Below, piece by piece: positions 1,676 to 6,686 of a DNA stretch of 24,232 nt. How positions within the stretch are numbered: position 1 is the stretch's first letter; each line of letters begins with the position of its first letter. Source of the stretch: a virus. The stretch is from positions 1-24,232 of the IMG/VR virus record IMGVR_UViG_3300028559_000187. One strand, written 5' to 3'. The translations under genes and the position numbers were made by a program. The notes beneath the pieces were generated by a model. It was not told the DNA's origin and ran no database searches. It was given only the letters and a program-made list of their open reading frames with translations.

Positions 1676-1696
1676 GTAGGGTATATATGAAAAAAA
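1676..1696 (-). promoter_or_regulatory. Degenerate copy of the early promoter-like element
   Basis: The plus strand reads GTAGGGTATATATG followed by seven A, close to the intact element GTAGGTTGATATG plus A-run. It lies 138 bases ahead of the ATG at 1538, inside the CTAG-rich leader, and could be a second, weaker start for that gene or a decayed relic. Confidence 0.35.
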
Positions 1697-1927
1697 TCTT
1701 GGAATCTAGGAATCTAGACAGAGGACTCAAGTAACTTGATCTAGACTCTCCTAGAGATCTAAAACGTGAGACTAGTCTACAAGAACAAAAACCTCTCCAA
1801 GACATGGAATAGAGGATTCTAATCGTTAATCTTGAACTAGTTCTGGAGGAGGGCTCAGATCTTGATACAAGACCTAGAACAAGATCATGTTCTTGGTCGG
1901 AGACGTGGCTGTGTTGTATTCTAATAG

Positions 1928-1939
1928 GTAGGTTGATAT
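1928..1939 (-). promoter_or_regulatory. Early promoter-like element, copy 1
   Basis: Exact GTAGGTTGATAT (ATATCAACCTAC on the transcribed strand). It lies right behind the terminator of the 1983-2408 gene and 390 bases ahead of the next start (1538). Its downstream flank, CTATTAGAATACAA, is the same as that of the copy at 2577. Confidence 0.7.
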
Positions 1940-1940
1940 G

Positions 1941-1976
1941 AAAAAAAAAGGTAACACGTCGTATTGACGTGCTACC
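1941..1976 (-). terminator. Intrinsic terminator of the 141-aa gene
   Basis: An 11-bp stem (1966-1976 with 1950-1960, one G-U pair) and a five-base loop are followed on the minus strand by nine T (1941-1949). It starts seven bases after the stop codon at 1983. Confidence 0.85.
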
Positions 1977-1982
1977 CAATGA

Positions 1983-2408
1983 CTAATCTTCAAAGTCGGC
2001 ATCATTTTCGCTTGGAACGAACTCAGGCTGTTCTAGTGTAGGTGGTGCTACAGTAGCCTTCTTGGTGTGTTGCTTGAAGATTAGGTCAGCAACCCTATCC
2101 GCAAGTTTATCAGCCACCGCACCCTGATAGGTACCCACTAGTTTGACTAACTTATCGGTTTCGTCTTCTAAGTGGATTATTTTACCACTTTCCGAAAAAC
2201 CGATGTTAAAATCCGCGGCTTTGAATTTCGTACTGTACTTCGGCATACCGAAATAATCCGAAAATTCATCGGTAATGGTACTAGCGTACTTACCACGGGC
2301 TTTTTGGAACTTATCCAAAAGGGCTTGGTTGTCGCTATCAATGGCGAAGAAATTAACGCCTGTCTGTGGGTTGCTATCAATGTAGATAGCTTTTAACGAA
2401 TTTTTCAT
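1983..2408 (-). CDS. Hypothetical early protein with acidic tail, 141 aa
   Basis: Family not recognised. Residues about 1-110 look like a compact soluble domain. A Pro-rich linker and an acidic end (EQPEFVPSENDADFED) follow, a layout shared with the 164-aa protein encoded next, although the two cores show no obvious similarity. The ATG at 2408 lies 34 bases after an exact promoter-like element and the gene ends in a strong terminator, so it is a single-gene transcription unit. A role in binding single-stranded nucleic acid is possible but inferred only from the tail. Confidence 0.75.
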   Translation of the reverse strand: MKNSLKAIYIDSNPQTGVNFFAIDSDNQALLDKFQKARGKYASTITDEFSDYFGMPKYSTKFKAADFNIGFSESGKIIHLEDETDKLVKLVGTYQGAVADKLADRVADLIFKQHTKKATVAPPTLEQPEFVPSENDADFED

Positions 2409-2442
2409 AGTACTTTGTTTTTTGGTACTATGGTTCTATTAA

Positions 2443-2454
2443 GTAGGTTGATAT
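2443..2454 (-). promoter_or_regulatory. Early promoter-like element, copy 2
   Basis: Exact GTAGGTTGATAT, 34 bases ahead of the ATG at 2408. A T5 run precedes it on the transcribed strand without a clear hairpin. The following flank TTAATAGAACC...GTACCAAAAAA is shared with the copy at 3018. Confidence 0.75.
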
Positions 2455-2498
2455 GAAAAATTAGAGTAATCATACCAATTTAATCAGGAGTACTTTAG

Positions 2499-2576
2499 AA
2501 AAAAAACGGTAACTACTTACATATAGCCCAACGCCGTGTCACTGCTAGGATTGTATCCGTTTTTGTATTCTAATAG
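2499..2576 (-). ncRNA. Candidate small RNA from a promoter cassette without a reading frame
   Basis: The element at 2577 is not followed by a usable reading frame. About 70 bases downstream on the minus strand lies a T8 run (2499-2506). The start of the interval carries AAAAACGG, which pairs with CCGTTTTT at its end, so the transcript would close into one stem around an inner part of higher GC. Promoter, closed structure and U-tract suggest a short RNA of 60-70 nt. No family is recognised. Confidence 0.35.
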
Positions 2577-2588
2577 GTAGGTTGATAT
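2577..2588 (-). promoter_or_regulatory. Early promoter-like element, copy 3
   Basis: Exact GTAGGTTGATAT immediately behind the terminator of the 108-aa gene. No start codon with a real frame follows within 120 bases; a candidate small RNA does. Confidence 0.7.
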
Positions 2589-2589
2589 G

Positions 2590-2618
2590 AAAAAAAAAGA
2601 TAATCCTAATGGATTACC
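2590..2618 (-). terminator. Intrinsic terminator of the 108-aa gene
   Basis: Arms 2611-2618 and 2599-2606 (GGTAATCC with GGATTATC) around a four-base loop, then nine T on the minus strand (2590-2598). Confidence 0.85.
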
Positions 2619-2656
2619 TTTTAACAGTCAATGATTGGGGAAACTTCGACTACATC

Positions 2657-2983
2657 TCAGTAACACTCCACAGGTGCTGTAATAACTCCTATCTCGTTGT
2701 AAAGAGTCGGTGTGTGGTGGCGAAAGCTAACCATATCCTGAATAGACTTTCTATTCAAGTAATTGTTAACATATTCTTCAACCCTTTCAACGTAATCTTT
2801 GTCTGATACTTCTAAATCATTCAAGTCTTCGATTAGTTCAAACGAAATACTTTTTAGATAACCCCCATTACTTGCTACAGGGATAAGACCTAATAAAGTC
2901 TCGAACTGTCTTTTGTTTAACACAACAGGTAATTCTTCAGGATTAGTATTTCCTTTCCTGAAGTCAATAAATGATTCTATCAT
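2657..2983 (-). CDS. Hypothetical early protein, 108 aa
   Basis: Family not recognised. The product is acidic and soluble, with a probable helical middle (residues about 48-85, rich in Asp, Glu, Val and Asn) and no membrane segment. The ATG at 2983 lies 35 bases after a promoter-like element, matching the spacing at 2408, and the two 5' leaders are near duplicates (TTAATAGAACC, then GTACCAAAAAA). A hairpin terminator follows the stop by about 40 bases. It is a single-gene cassette in the early block. Confidence 0.75.
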   Translation of the reverse strand: MIESFIDFRKGNTNPEELPVVLNKRQFETLLGLIPVASNGGYLKSISFELIEDLNDLEVSDKDYVERVEEYVNNYLNRKSIQDMVSFRHHTPTLYNEIGVITAPVECY

Positions 2984-3017
2984 AAGTGTATATTTTTTGG
3001 TACAAAGGTTCTATTAA

Positions 3018-3029
3018 GTAGGTTGATAT
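3018..3029 (-). promoter_or_regulatory. Early promoter-like element, copy 4
   Basis: Exact GTAGGTTGATAT, 35 bases before the ATG at 2983. Unlike most copies it lacks a long T-run directly upstream; the terminator of the preceding unit lies about 40 bases away. Confidence 0.75.
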
Positions 3030-3068
3030 TAAACTTTTGAGTTTTATACCAACCTGTATTTTTACCCT

Positions 3069-3104
3069 AAAAAGAATAACCCGCTAACTTTATACGTTAA
3101 CGGG
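3069..3104 (-). terminator. Intrinsic terminator of the two-gene unit 3433-3090
   Basis: A 9-bp stem (3096-3104 with 3080-3088, one G-U pair) with a seven-base loop, followed on the minus strand by TTATTCTTTTT. The stem overlaps the last codons and stop of the 55-aa gene. Confidence 0.8.
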
Positions 3105-3257
3105 CTTAATAGCGCTCACCTCAAATATTCCGAGGTAATAGGTCCAGCTACCACAAGGTAATCTGATCTTGGTCGTGAAACTTACCGATCCGCCTGGCGA
3201 TACTTCCTTTATCCTGGTCCTTTGACCATAGACAAGGACTTCAGCCCCGACTGTCAT
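3090..3257 (-). CDS. Hypothetical small protein, 55 aa
   Basis: The ATG at 3257 overlaps the stop of the upstream 59-aa gene as ATGA, so the two are probably translationally coupled. The product is basic and looks like a small beta-rich domain (alternating Val/Tyr/Thr, a PGGSVSF turn, then CGSWTYYLGIFEV). No membrane segment and no family recognised. Its last codons form part of a terminator stem. The support is the overlap, the uninterrupted frame and the terminator placed exactly at its end. Confidence 0.6.
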   Translation of the reverse strand: MTVGAEVLVYGQRTRIKEVSPGGSVSFTTKIRLPCGSWTYYLGIFEVSAIKPVNV

Positions 3258-3433
3258 AAACAATCAGGGTTTGATTTCCAAGGACGAAACTTCTGTTGAC
3301 ACTCACACATGTCAATCTCGGTTTTACTTTTAGTTATACACTTGATGTACATCATAGATGATACACATACGTACAACATAATAATAACACCGGCTACTAT
3401 AGCCGACATTACAAAACGGTCATTTTTGTTCAT
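3254..3433 (-). CDS. Small single-pass membrane protein with Cys-rich tail, 59 aa
   Basis: The ATG at 3433 lies 25 bases after a promoter-like element. Residues 7-30 form one hydrophobic helix (Ile, Val, Met, Leu). After it comes a basic, polar tail with Cys32, Cys43, Cys45 and Cys58. The short charged N-terminus and basic residues just after the helix would fit an N-out, C-in membrane protein, but the topology is uncertain. First gene of a two-gene unit with the 55-aa gene. Small early membrane proteins of phages often alter host envelope functions; nothing here shows which. Confidence 0.65.
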   Translation of the reverse strand: MNKNDRFVMSAIVAGVIIMLYVCVSSMMYIKCITKSKTEIDMCECQQKFRPWKSNPDCL

Positions 3434-3457
3434 AGTATAAATTTAGTGTTCAATAAT

Positions 3458-3469
3458 GTAGGTTGATAT
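3458..3469 (-). promoter_or_regulatory. Early promoter-like element, copy 5
   Basis: Exact GTAGGTTGATAT, 25 bases before the ATG at 3433, directly abutting the T-run of the preceding terminator. Confidence 0.75.
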
Positions 3470-3564
3470 AAAAAAATAATAAACAAGGCTGCTAATCCTT
3501 AAAATATGACAATACATTGCTTGTTCATATATAAATAGCACTTTATAGCACCTTGTTTATTATT
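3470..3564 (-). terminator. Long-loop terminator-like inverted repeat
   Basis: A perfect 14-bp inverted repeat (3551-3564 with 3475-3488, AATAATAAACAAGG against its complement) encloses about 60 bases and is followed on the minus strand by a T-run. A further GCTA/TAGC pairing extends it inward. The upstream arm contains the stop codon of the 70-aa gene. The loop is far longer than in a usual terminator, so it may hold a small RNA domain. Confidence 0.5.
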
Positions 3565-3772
3565 GATAGAACGGTGTAATCACACCATTTGTAGACTCAA
3601 ACTGTTTACCATAATAGCAATCTACACGTTCTAACTCACGGATGTTAGAAATGTGATTGTCTTTAATGGTGAGTAATAAGTCTCCTTCTTCTGCTATAGC
3701 TTTAGCAGCCTCCCATTCGAGGTGATTAAAAACACAGTTGTTCCTCTTAATCACCGAATACGTGTGTAACAT
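3560..3772 (-). CDS. Hypothetical early protein, 70 aa
   Basis: Family not recognised. Small, soluble-looking and mildly acidic; residues 17-30 look helical (HLEWEAAKAIAEEG), followed by a probable beta part. The ATG at 3772 lies 33 bases after a promoter-like element, and the stop lies inside the arm of a long inverted repeat that ends in a T-run. It is a single-gene cassette like its neighbours. Confidence 0.7.
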   Translation of the reverse strand: MLHTYSVIKRNNCVFNHLEWEAAKAIAEEGDLLLTIKDNHISNIRELERVDCYYGKQFESTNGVITPFYQ

Positions 3773-3804
3773 ATAGTAAGATTTTGATACAATAACTCGA
3801 AAAA

Positions 3805-3816
3805 GTAGGTTGATAT
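3805..3816 (-). promoter_or_regulatory. Early promoter-like element, copy 6
   Basis: Exact GTAGGTTGATAT, 33 bases before the ATG at 3772, directly after the T-run of the next terminator. Confidence 0.75.
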
Positions 3817-3817
3817 G

Positions 3818-3848
3818 AAAAAATAATAGTAGACGCTAAGTCTACTAT
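3818..3848 (-). terminator. Intrinsic terminator of the 24-aa gene
   Basis: A perfect 9-bp stem (ATAGTAGAC, 3840-3848 with 3826-3834) and a five-base loop, then TTATTTTTT on the minus strand. Confidence 0.9.
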
Positions 3849-3860
3849 CTTGGTCAAGGC

Positions 3861-3935
3861 TTACTTAACAGTAAGATTCCAACCTTTCTTGTTACACAAT
3901 TGTGATAACAAGAGAACTAATTCGCTTTTAGCCAT
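3861..3935 (-). CDS. Putative microprotein, 24 aa
   Basis: Between a promoter-like element (3968) and a perfect terminator (3818-3848), the only ATG frame is 24 codons long: starting MAKSELVLLL and ending KKGWNLTVK. The ATG lies 32 bases after the element, the same spacing as the larger genes, and the stop lies 12 bases before the terminator stem. That geometry is the main support. The product would be a short amphipathic helix with a basic end. It could instead be a small RNA whose frame is accidental. Confidence 0.5.
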   Translation of the reverse strand: MAKSELVLLLSQLCNKKGWNLTVK

Positions 3936-3967
3936 TGGTTTAAGATTTGGTACTAAGACTCATACAA

Positions 3968-3979
3968 GTAGGTTGATAT
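3968..3979 (-). promoter_or_regulatory. Early promoter-like element, copy 7
   Basis: Exact GTAGGTTGATAT, 32 bases before the ATG at 3935, directly after a T7 run. Confidence 0.75.
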
Positions 3980-4003
3980 AAAAAAAGTGAGTATAAACTC
4001 ACT
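3980..4003 (-). terminator. Intrinsic terminator of the 65-aa membrane protein gene
   Basis: A 7-bp stem (AGTGAGT, 3997-4003 with 3986-3992) and four-base loop, then seven T on the minus strand. The stem includes the stop codon of the gene. Confidence 0.85.
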
Positions 4004-4196
4004 CTTTTACATCTTCGTACCACCAGTAGATGGCGAAACAAGTAGTAGTTGTATAGTACATTATTAGTACTATCCAAGCAAATACGTTGTATTCGTTGAA
4101 ACTAAACGCGCTTCCTAGCGTCATCATCCCGGCTACAAAACTAGCGATTAAGAAAGATAGGCTAACACAGCCTATAAATGTTACTACGTTTTTCAT
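3999..4196 (-). CDS. Small two-helix membrane protein, 65 aa
   Basis: Two hydrophobic segments, about residues 5-30 and 37-58, are joined by a short polar turn; the C-terminus is aromatic and acidic (YWWYEDVKE). The frame is open upstream to 4256, but that longer version would run through the terminator of the preceding gene and the promoter-like element at 4223, so the ATG at 4196 is taken as the start, 26 bases after the element. No family recognised. Early expression of a small membrane protein suggests a host-envelope function such as altering transport or excluding other phages, but this is a guess. Confidence 0.7.
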   Translation of the reverse strand: MKNVVTFIGCVSLSFLIASFVAGMMTLGSAFSFNEYNVFAWIVLIMYYTTTTCFAIYWWYEDVKE

Positions 4197-4222
4197 GGCT
4201 ATAAATTTTATAACTCTAATAT

Positions 4223-4232
4223 GTAGGTTGAT
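4223..4232 (-). promoter_or_regulatory. Early promoter-like element, copy 8 (shortened)
   Basis: GTAGGTTGAT followed at once by eight A; the last two bases of the usual 12-base element are replaced. It lies 26 bases before the ATG at 4196. Confidence 0.65.
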
Positions 4233-4262
4233 AAAAAAAATAAGAGGGTTATTCACCCTCTT
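4233..4262 (-). terminator. Intrinsic terminator of the 57-aa gene
   Basis: An 8-bp stem (AAGAGGGT, 4255-4262 with 4242-4249), five-base loop, then ATTTTTTTT on the minus strand. The stem begins inside the last codons of the gene. Confidence 0.85.
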
Positions 4263-4422
4263 TCTTTAGTAAGACCCTAAACAAGTAGTGCGTAGCACTG
4301 CTTGTAATATCATACTTGATTAATAAACCAGTAGTTGACCACTGGTTTAACTTAGTTTGTGTTTGTAACAACTCTTTTGAGTCACCACAAACTACTTCAA
4401 TTAATACCGTTCTTGTCTTCAT
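4249..4422 (-). CDS. Hypothetical small early protein, 57 aa
   Basis: Starts at the ATG at 4422, 26 bases after a variant promoter-like element, and ends inside the stem of a terminator. The product is basic and alternates hydrophobic and polar residues (MKTRTVLIEVVCGD, then LNQWSTTGLLIKYDIT, then YLFRVLLKKEGE), which suggests a small beta-alpha-beta fold; no family recognised. It is the first gene of the leftward block, nearest to the divergent control region, so it may be among the first genes transcribed. Confidence 0.65.
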   Translation of the reverse strand: MKTRTVLIEVVCGDSKELLQTQTKLNQWSTTGLLIKYDITSSATHYLFRVLLKKEGE

Positions 4423-4448
4423 AGCTTTAAAGTTTGTGGTTCTGATAT

Positions 4449-4460
4449 GTAAGTTGATAT
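4449..4460 (-). promoter_or_regulatory. Early promoter-like element, copy 9 (one change)
   Basis: GTAAGTTGATAT, one base different from the consensus, 26 bases before the ATG at 4422. A T5 run precedes it on the transcribed strand with no hairpin, so the T-run seems to belong to the element and not only to terminators. Confidence 0.65.
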
Positions 4461-4852: not shown

Positions 4853-4940
4853 GTAACCGAGGCGAAAAAAGAGAGTGGTAAACGGTGGGACTTAAAATCC
4901 CATGAGCTTGCTCGTACCGGTTCGAGTCCGGTCGGAAGTA
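4853..4940 (+). tRNA. tRNA-Leu(UAA)-like gene with poor 5' half
   Basis: The 3' two-thirds are textbook class II tRNA: anticodon stem TGGGA/TCCCA with loop CTTAAAA (anticodon TAA at 4893-4895), a GAGC/GCTC variable arm, and T-arm ACCGG-TTCGAGT-CCGGT. The acceptor strand CGGAAGT and discriminator A follow (A is standard for tRNA-Leu). The 5' side does not match: the best acceptor partner, GTAACCG at 4853-4859, gives three Watson-Crick pairs, two wobbles and two A-A clashes, and the D-stem is weak with an over-long loop. CCA is not encoded. It may be a decaying phage tRNA, or a host tRNA 3' end kept as an integration or recombination site. Confidence 0.6.
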
Positions 4941-4964: not shown

Positions 4965-5669
4965 ATGATACCAAAAGTAATTTACCTTACGTATAAAAAT
5001 CATAATATACCTGATTACGTTATTCCTAATTGGGAAAACTTAAATCAAGAATATAAAGTTGAGTTTTATACTGATGAGGATTGTAGAAAATTTTTACAAG
5101 AAAATTATCATGATAAATATCTTGAATTTTTTGATTCTGTAAAAGACGGGCCTATAAAATCTGATTTTTTTAGGGTTTGTATTTTATACAAATTCGGTGG
5201 GATTTATGCTGATATTGATATACAACCTATCGAATCTATCGATTTATTCCTGGGTAAAGATGTGTCATTTTTAACAGTATTATCAAAACCATCTAACGGA
5301 TTAATAAATCCACATTTTATAGCATGTACTCCTAATAATACAATAATCAAAAAAATAATAGATGGGTTTTTTGATTTAAAAAAAAATAAAGTCCCTTATT
5401 CTTATCACGCTTATTCTATTGTTCCTATTACCGGTCGAATATTTTATAAAATGTTTGGTGGTAAAGGTACTACAATACCTATGAAAGGACCTTGGACTAT
5501 TTGTTCAGATTATTTTAATATACCTGAAGGTATTTATAAAAAACCTGAAGGAATAATTCAGTTATTACAAGAAACTTGTCCTAAAGATTTTTACGAGTGT
5601 GCTGCCTGGTATAAGGGTAAAAAAATATTATTAAATAGATACAAAACTTATATAGATCATACCTTTTAA
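4965..5669 (+). CDS. DXD-motif glycosyltransferase (GT32-like), 234 aa
   Basis: Resembles the Gly_transf_sug family (OCH1-like), which moves a sugar from a nucleotide-sugar to an acceptor. Seen: an N-terminal MIPKVIYLTY strand, typical of these enzymes, and the hallmark stretch around residues 66-88 with SDFFR (Asp67, Arg70), LYKFGGIYADIDIQP and the DXD pair Asp83/Asp85 that binds the metal and nucleotide. No signal peptide or membrane helix, so it acts in the cytoplasm. It begins 25 bases after the tRNA-like gene and converges on an FkbM-type methyltransferase. The pair looks like accessory cargo, perhaps decorating virion proteins or host surface sugars; the acceptor is unknown. Confidence 0.88.
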   Translation: MIPKVIYLTYKNHNIPDYVIPNWENLNQEYKVEFYTDEDCRKFLQENYHDKYLEFFDSVKDGPIKSDFFRVCILYKFGGIYADIDIQPIESIDLFLGKDVSFLTVLSKPSNGLINPHFIACTPNNTIIKKIIDGFFDLKKNKVPYSYHAYSIVPITGRIFYKMFGGKGTTIPMKGPWTICSDYFNIPEGIYKKPEGIIQLLQETCPKDFYECAAWYKGKKILLNRYKTYIDHTF

Positions 5670-5694: not shown

Positions 5695-6486
5695 TTACAA
5701 AGATCTTATAACAACCATTCGATAAGGTTCTTTATCTTCAGTTAACATACTTTCTGTAAAAAGTTGTTCATTACCGTTATAATCCACATAAGTTAATTTA
5801 TGATTTTTAGACAGCGATTGGAAGAAATATTTCCCATTTTCTAAATAATGAGGATAAACAAATTCTAATAAAACAACACATTGAGGATTTCTTTCAAGAA
5901 GTTTTTGCATACCGTTCCATGCTAATTCTTCAGCTCCTTCAATATCTAATTTAATAAAATCAACGGGTCTATCTATAGAGTCTAAAGCAATTGTTTCTAC
6001 CTTAATTGTCTTTTCTACAGGTCCGTCCGGGTGTTGGTAAATTATAGTAGAATTTAAACTACTAGTTAAAATATTTAATTCGATAACGTTTCCGGTAACA
6101 TCGACTATTGCTTTATTTATAACTTTAACTTTAGATGCACAATTATTTAATTCGATAGACTTTTCAAGAAACGGTATTATCTCAGGGTTAGCTTCGATAG
6201 CTAATACTTCGCAATTTTTTTTCTCTAATAAGAAAGTATAATATCCATAATTAGGTCCTCCGTCTATACAATAAGAACCTGGTTTTATATTTTTACTCAT
6301 CCATAAAGTTATCCAAGCTTCCCAGAAACCGTCGTCTTTAAAATGATGAGAAATACCTTTATCGTTTAATTTACTAGCAATTAAATAAGAGTCTAATTGT
6401 TTAGAAATTTGAAAAGAGTTTTCTATAAATGTTTTTCTACCTTTTAAACCTGTAGTTTCTACATGAGCTCTATTTTTGAATACCAT
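5695..6486 (-). CDS. FkbM-family SAM-dependent methyltransferase, 263 aa
   Basis: Motifs of the FkbM group (Methyltransf_21), which methylates hydroxyls on sugars or other small molecules: SAM-binding loop CIDGGPNYGYYT (residues 73-84), the acidic end of strand 2 in AIEANP (96-101) and DFIKLDIEGAE (176-186), the family hallmark. The family loop usually reads DVGAN; here it is DGGPN. The frame is open upstream to an ATG at 6573, but the extra 29 residues are a low-complexity hydrophobic string, so the ATG at 6486 is preferred. The gene faces left inside a rightward region, next to a glycosyltransferase, which points to acquired cargo. The methyl acceptor is unknown; a sugar added by the neighbour is a natural guess. 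Confidence 0.85.
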   Translation of the reverse strand: MVFKNRAHVETTGLKGRKTFIENSFQISKQLDSYLIASKLNDKGISHHFKDDGFWEAWITLWMSKNIKPGSYCIDGGPNYGYYTFLLEKKNCEVLAIEANPEIIPFLEKSIELNNCASKVKVINKAIVDVTGNVIELNILTSSLNSTIIYQHPDGPVEKTIKVETIALDSIDRPVDFIKLDIEGAEELAWNGMQKLLERNPQCVVLLEFVYPHYLENGKYFFQSLSKNHKLTYVDYNGNEQLFTESMLTEDKEPYRMVVIRSL

Positions 6487-6686
6487 AATTTTTTTTTGGT
6501 AAAGGTAAAGATTATTTACAAATACAGAAAATAGTATTATTATACATCGATGAAATAGAATGAACATATCCAATATTACGAAGACGGGCAGTAGAAAACC
6601 GACTATTAACTGGAAAATCCTAGGTTTGAATCTACAAAAGGAAACTTTTAATAAAGTTTTATATCTTTATTAAAAATAGAAGAATA

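Follow-up and report, generated by a model that had tools for sequence, protein, structure and literature searches.

The present analysis concerns a 24,232-nt stretch of viral DNA (IMG/VR record IMGVR_UViG_3300028559_000187, positions 1 to 24,232; hereafter the window), in which an array of nine near-identical motif copies lies between positions 1928 and 4460. Judging from sequence comparisons, we consider these copies to be early promoters specific to the phage, with its own virion RNA polymerase (RNAP) as the probable reader, and assign this reading a probability of roughly 60%. We strongly infer that the copies function as promoters, as this is the simplest account of their position, orientation, spacing, uniformity within the genome and preceding terminators; the assignment to the early phase and the identity of the reading polymerase are likewise inferred. 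The virion RNAP is suggested as the reader by the analogy with Thermus phage P23-45, by the uniformity of the motif within genomes together with its change between lineages, and by one conflict between phylogenetic trees. An earlier note on this DNA had proposed that the motif may be a virion RNAP promoter; a promoter array is well supported, while the virion RNAP as its reader is only probable.

The array itself was confirmed: ATATCAACCTAC was found seven times exactly and twice with one mismatch, always on the minus strand and at the starts given in the earlier note (Table 1). When up to two mismatches to this 12-mer were allowed, 15 matches were obtained compared to 2.9 expected from dinucleotide shuffles. 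In the alignment, the 12-mer is followed on its 3' side by any nucleotide, an invariant T, four variable positions, an invariant GA and a purine (A/G) in 9 of 9 sites, and the full unit reads T-run-n-ATATCAACCTAC-n-T-n4-GA-(A/G), or in short form T-run-nATATCAACCTACnTnnnnGA(A/G). Seven copies precede an ATG, as had been stated, by 24-26 nt (copies starting at 3458, 4223 and 4449) or 32-34 nt (2443, 3018, 3805 and 3968). The second box described previously does lie at a constant distance but is looser than claimed, with TATTAGAA itself present in a minority of copies. The decayed copy reported at 1676 can be regarded as a weak candidate, as it has the T-run and the TTTAGAAT flank of the other copies but scored below 5 bits in an ungapped position weight matrix (PWM) scan.

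The same phage is represented by a longer record, IMGVR_UViG_3300028044_000003 (G001; 111,530 bp, 99.97% identical to the window), whose end sequences recur at its start, which suggests a genome that is complete or nearly so. A PWM search of both strands of G001 returned nine sites at 29-35 bits, all on one strand between 31,467 and 33,998, and the next-best site reached 12 bits, inside the range of shuffled sequences (maxima 5-18). As the earlier note had anticipated, the motif is restricted to the putative early block, with 9 of 9 high-scoring sites in 2.5 kb of 111.5 kb. In the rest of the early/middle block of G001 no repeat clearly exceeded shuffles, and late-block repeats were distributed over entire coding blocks and not clustered. 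In crAss001, the early genes occupy one genome end and the strand not used by the structural block (PMC8375218); judging from this gene order and from its own position, the array block would be early.

Most copies are also embedded in a recurrent terminator context, which the earlier note had missed together with the units without an open reading frame (ORF) behind the copies at 1928 and 2577. Along the direction of transcription, the order is gene, T-run hairpin, motif, short leader and next gene. With five lineages pooled, a T-tailed hairpin of dG <= -8 kcal/mol within 70 nt upstream was present at 30 of 41 motif sites (including one coding-region match in the relative G011 and two doubtful matches in G009) compared to 31 of 209 control positions from the same blocks (Fisher p = 2.6e-13). 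Five of the nine copies in this phage passed the test.

ORF-less units behind the motif were also found in the relative G010. In the present phage, the candidate transcript behind element 7 finishes with a T-run of its own, and its ends can pair (AAAACGG/CCGUUUU); a structured small RNA at this place was rejected, its fold being no more stable than shuffles (z about -0.3). The unit behind element 9 overlaps a CTAG-rich palindromic noncoding stretch (1540-1920) that holds 11 of the 72 CTAG sites of the window in 380 bp, and the ORF that follows (1044-1538) has a homolog in related early blocks. The 24-codon ORF behind element 3 (MAKSELVLLLSQLCNKKGWNLTVK) is the sole ORF seen in its transcription unit. 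We also noted a DUF2828/DUF7788 protein, probably TROVE/vWA-like (L028:17291-18691; G001 37,291-38,691), and crAss001 likewise expresses a TROVE protein early. Because of this early crAss001 protein and the ORF-less units of the array, a partnership of the TROVE/vWA-like protein with the RNAs of these units is conceivable.

We confirmed that the phage is crAss-like, as its portal protein matched crAss001 gp20 (E=9e-21) and its major capsid protein matched gp32 (E=6e-5). It encodes, as assumed previously, a virion-RNAP-type protein (4289 aa, SGSDFDVDK, G001 78,495-91,364) with homologs in all related genomes examined, and the profile of this family matched the structure of the phi14:2 DNA-dependent RNAP gp66 (PDB 6VR4) with E=3.4e-34; hhalign was also run. 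A conserved replication-block protein (G001 67,900-68,757; L030:7900-8757) carries a C-terminal GSGSDFDIDKETL that echoes the virion RNAP catalytic motif, an ending seen only in this phage among the homologs found.

Equivalent arrays were identified by de novo motif searches in about a dozen related lineages, whose TerL proteins are about 56-99% identical among themselves and 60-68% identical to that of this phage. The arrays open the block that diverges from the late genes and lie on the strand of that block, and their sequence is uniform inside each genome and different in each lineage. Strong arrays were those of G010 (AAAGTCCTTAAT, 13 copies), G013 (AACACCTTAAT, 6-7), G018 (AACCCCTTTTTT, 6), G019 (TAACTCTTTAT, 5), G020 (CCAACTCAtaACT, 5), G021 (AACAGCTCA, 9), G026 (TATAACCTATTA, 6), G027 (TTTGGAACTC, 6) and G049 (CCTAGCC, 5), while moderate or weak ones were found in G042/G043 (GCTAACCCTTAAC, 3-4 copies), G009, G011/G012 and G033/G034 (terminator arm plus TTTTTTAATTAAT). 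Many lineages have in common an AACC- or CCT-like core with an A/T-rich box some 8-12 nt further. The 12-mer of the present phage was not found in the relatives, whose arrays have other sequences, and an exact-pattern scan with the G010/G013 consensus, evaluated by match counts only, gave relevant arrays in those two phages only. Homologous early genes follow different motifs (the 55% pair of G010 and G013). That the layout is kept while the signal sequences change suggests a phage-encoded RNAP as the reader of these signals. The contigs of G014, G015, G022 and G023 probably do not include the array region. Separately, dense GGACC/CCTTG repeats in the structural block of G041 and G042 (L416-L418, L421) are probably collagen-like.

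One disagreement between trees bears on the identity of this polymerase. In the RNAP tree, G010 and G013 were joined with a support of 100/100, whereas the TerL tree joined G013 with G015 (100/100) and placed G010 with G011/G033/G034 (99/99). G010 and G013 share CCTTAATnATTnAAAT and form the most similar motif pair of 55, and the motif of G011 is unrelated to that of G010 despite an 88% identical TerL. In this well-supported conflict, a single event, the motif appears to go with the RNAP. A second RNAP/TerL conflict (G020/G022) did not offer a clean comparison: the G022 contig seems to be without the early block, and G041-G043, which have a G022-type RNAP and a TerL that is not G022-like, carry CTAACCCTTAAC or similar compared to CCAACTCAtaACT in G020.

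Several results weigh against promoters read by the virion RNAP. Across the 55 lineage pairs, motif similarity was correlated neither with RNAP identity (rho -0.05) nor with TerL identity (rho -0.05), and with this null result the link to the RNAP rests on the one clear conflict. Such a null would be expected if motifs lose their resemblance once RNAP identity falls below about 45%, an interpretation made afterwards. No comparable array was found in six published genomes of crAss-like or related phages (crAss001, phi14:2, cr55_1, cr272_1, ProJPt-Bp1 and Lbo-JY46), and none was found in G045. Furthermore, the phi14:2 virion RNAP is reported to transcribe replication genes as well as early ones (review PMC10136315), yet in the present phage the PWM scan placed no copy of the motif in the replication block, where no other strong repeat turned up either. 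Given this absence, the replication genes would be either read through or served by other promoters.

The main rival is the host polymerase with a special factor, i.e. early promoters to which host RNAP is directed by one of the host's sigma factors or by an activator or sigma-like factor that the phage encodes, which we regard as unlikely. According to a review (PMC10136315), the late genes of crAss-like phages are probably transcribed by host RNAP. A small protein of the early block could serve as the activator, and an unusual sigma factor may be involved; a search for the host among genome contigs found no TerL relative. The Bacteroidota consensus TTTGn17-23TAnnTTTG, which the earlier note had found not to match, occurs in no intergenic region; its seven whole-genome matches are all within genes and at or below shuffle level. 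A shared host sigma factor is also hard to square with completely different motifs at 88% TerL identity (G010 and G011), and no sigma factor was detected among ten replication-block proteins scanned (not the whole genome).

It is improbable that the motif acts at the RNA level, as a protein-binding or processing site in the 5' leader that controls translation or stability of the small mRNAs. Its place 24-34 nt before seven start codons would fit such a role, but it also precedes ORF-less units here and in G010, which argues against a translation signal, and it adjoins the T-run of the preceding terminator, so that transcribing it would need another start in almost no space; folded as DNA only, the copies had no conserved fold. 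We give the least credence to the motif as a part of the terminator, for example a downstream element where the phage polymerase stops. Such a role would agree with the strong adjacency to T-tailed hairpins and with the unusual termination motif of the P23-45 virion RNAP (PMC10770324), but was rejected because element 1 is preceded by neither a gene nor a strong terminator and a gap of 45 nt separates element 6 from its terminator.

If the copies are promoters of the virion RNAP, the region would be a row of about nine single-gene transcription units, each consisting of a promoter (ATATCAACCTACnTnnnnGAA), a short leader, a small ORF or noncoding RNA and an intrinsic terminator, with most terminators adjoining the next promoter. 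The motif would be the recognition sequence of the 4289-aa polymerase. Entering along with the DNA, this enzyme would produce a series of short, separate transcripts from the block that diverges from the late genes. The promoter would co-evolve with its polymerase, so that each phage has one uniform sequence and each lineage a different one. More tentatively, and at slightly less than even odds, environmental crAss-like phages may carry a fast-evolving, self-contained early module of terminator-promoter cassettes read by the virion RNAP, some driving noncoding RNAs, in which an exchange of the RNAP replaces the whole promoter set. Our literature search returned no description of a promoter for crAss-like phages. 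The arrays provide concrete candidate promoters, present as natural repeats, for some dozen lineages whose polymerases are divergent. With them, promoter recognition by the two-barrel RNAP family can be tested directly in vitro, and new orthogonal promoter-polymerase pairs may result.

Between the early array and the late block, the window encodes a DXD sugar glycosyltransferase (4965-5669, plus strand) and an FkbM-type methyltransferase (5695-6573, minus strand). A tRNA-Leu(UAA)-like remnant at 4869-4932 (plus strand) has no clear acceptor stem; it scored 26.3 bits with the Rfam tRNA model (gathering score 29) and was negative with ARAGORN.

Table 1 Motif copies, terminator-like hairpins and noncoding units of the array, in window coordinates.
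Feature	Position	Strand	Remarks
Element 1	4449..4460	-	ATATCAACTTAC; first in transcription direction; precedes 57-aa ORF 4249-4422; no strong terminator upstream
Element 2	4223..4234	-	TTATCAACCTAC; precedes ORF ending at 3999 (ATG at 4196)
Element 3	3968..3979	-	exact; precedes 24-codon ORF 3861-3935 (-)
Element 4	3805..3816	-	exact; precedes ORF 3560-3772
Element 5	3458..3469	-	exact; precedes ORF 3254-3433
Element 6	3018..3029	-	exact; precedes ORF 2657-2983; closest terminator ~45 nt upstream
Element 7	2577..2588	-	exact; followed by short ORF-less unit
Element 8	2443..2454	-	exact; precedes ORF 1983-2408
Element 9	1928..1939	-	exact; ~380 nt without convincing ORF, then ORF 1044-1538
Possible decayed copy, weak	1676..1687	-	TATATACCCTAC with T-run and TTTAGAAT flank
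Terminator-like hairpin and T-run before element 2	4233..4263	-	dG -11.6
Terminator-like hairpin and T-run before element 3	3981..4004	-	dG -11.6
Terminator-like hairpin and T-run before element 4	3818..3850	-	dG -11.2
Long-loop inverted repeat and T-run before element 5	3471..3565	-	AATAAACAAGG/CCTTGTTTATT; by eye
Terminator-like hairpin and T-run, ~45 nt before element 6	3069..3105	-	GCCCGTTAACG/AGTTAGCGGG; by eye
Terminator-like hairpin and T-run before element 7	2590..2620	-	dG -12.1
Terminator-like hairpin and T-run before element 9	1941..1977	-	strongest; dG -18.6
Candidate small noncoding transcript behind element 7	2498..2566	-	~70 nt; ends in CCGTTTTTTTT
CTAG-rich noncoding stretch after element 9, leader or RNA	1690..1917	-	fold z -1.98

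Phages T7, T3 and SP6 have several near-identical asymmetric promoters per genome with a lineage-specific sequence. The present array is similar in both respects and differs in that their polymerase is a single-subunit T7-type RNAP, whereas this phage has a DFDxD two-barrel RNAP and promoters confined to 2.5 kb. The N4 virion RNAP reads early promoters that are small single-strand hairpins. The present array shares with N4 the predicted role as early promoters of a virion RNAP, but an N4-type hairpin promoter (5-7 bp stem, 3-nt loop) was rejected, as no stable DNA hairpin was found at four sites. Only the early motif of G011 and G012, TTGC-TNN-GCAA, forms a mini-hairpin with a 3-nt loop that recalls the N4 promoters; the other lineages differ. 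The phage encodes a homolog of the polymerase family of phi14:2 gp66 (PDB 6VR4), for which no promoter was named in the literature searched; phi14:2 itself gave no comparable array. The closest parallel is Thermus phage P23-45, in which the virion RNAP gp96 starts pre-early transcription at mapped sites with a strongly conserved AT-rich motif; among the relatives of P23-45, only those with this RNAP have the motif (PMC10770324). The present phage likewise has a conserved motif before putative early genes and a two-barrel virion RNAP, a likeness of placement and RNAP type. We do not claim gp96-type membership, as host and phage family differ and the P23-45 promoters are known from mapped starts, the present ones being predicted from sequence. 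Compared to P23-45, the putative promoter of this phage adjoins a terminator and appears to be replaced lineage by lineage.

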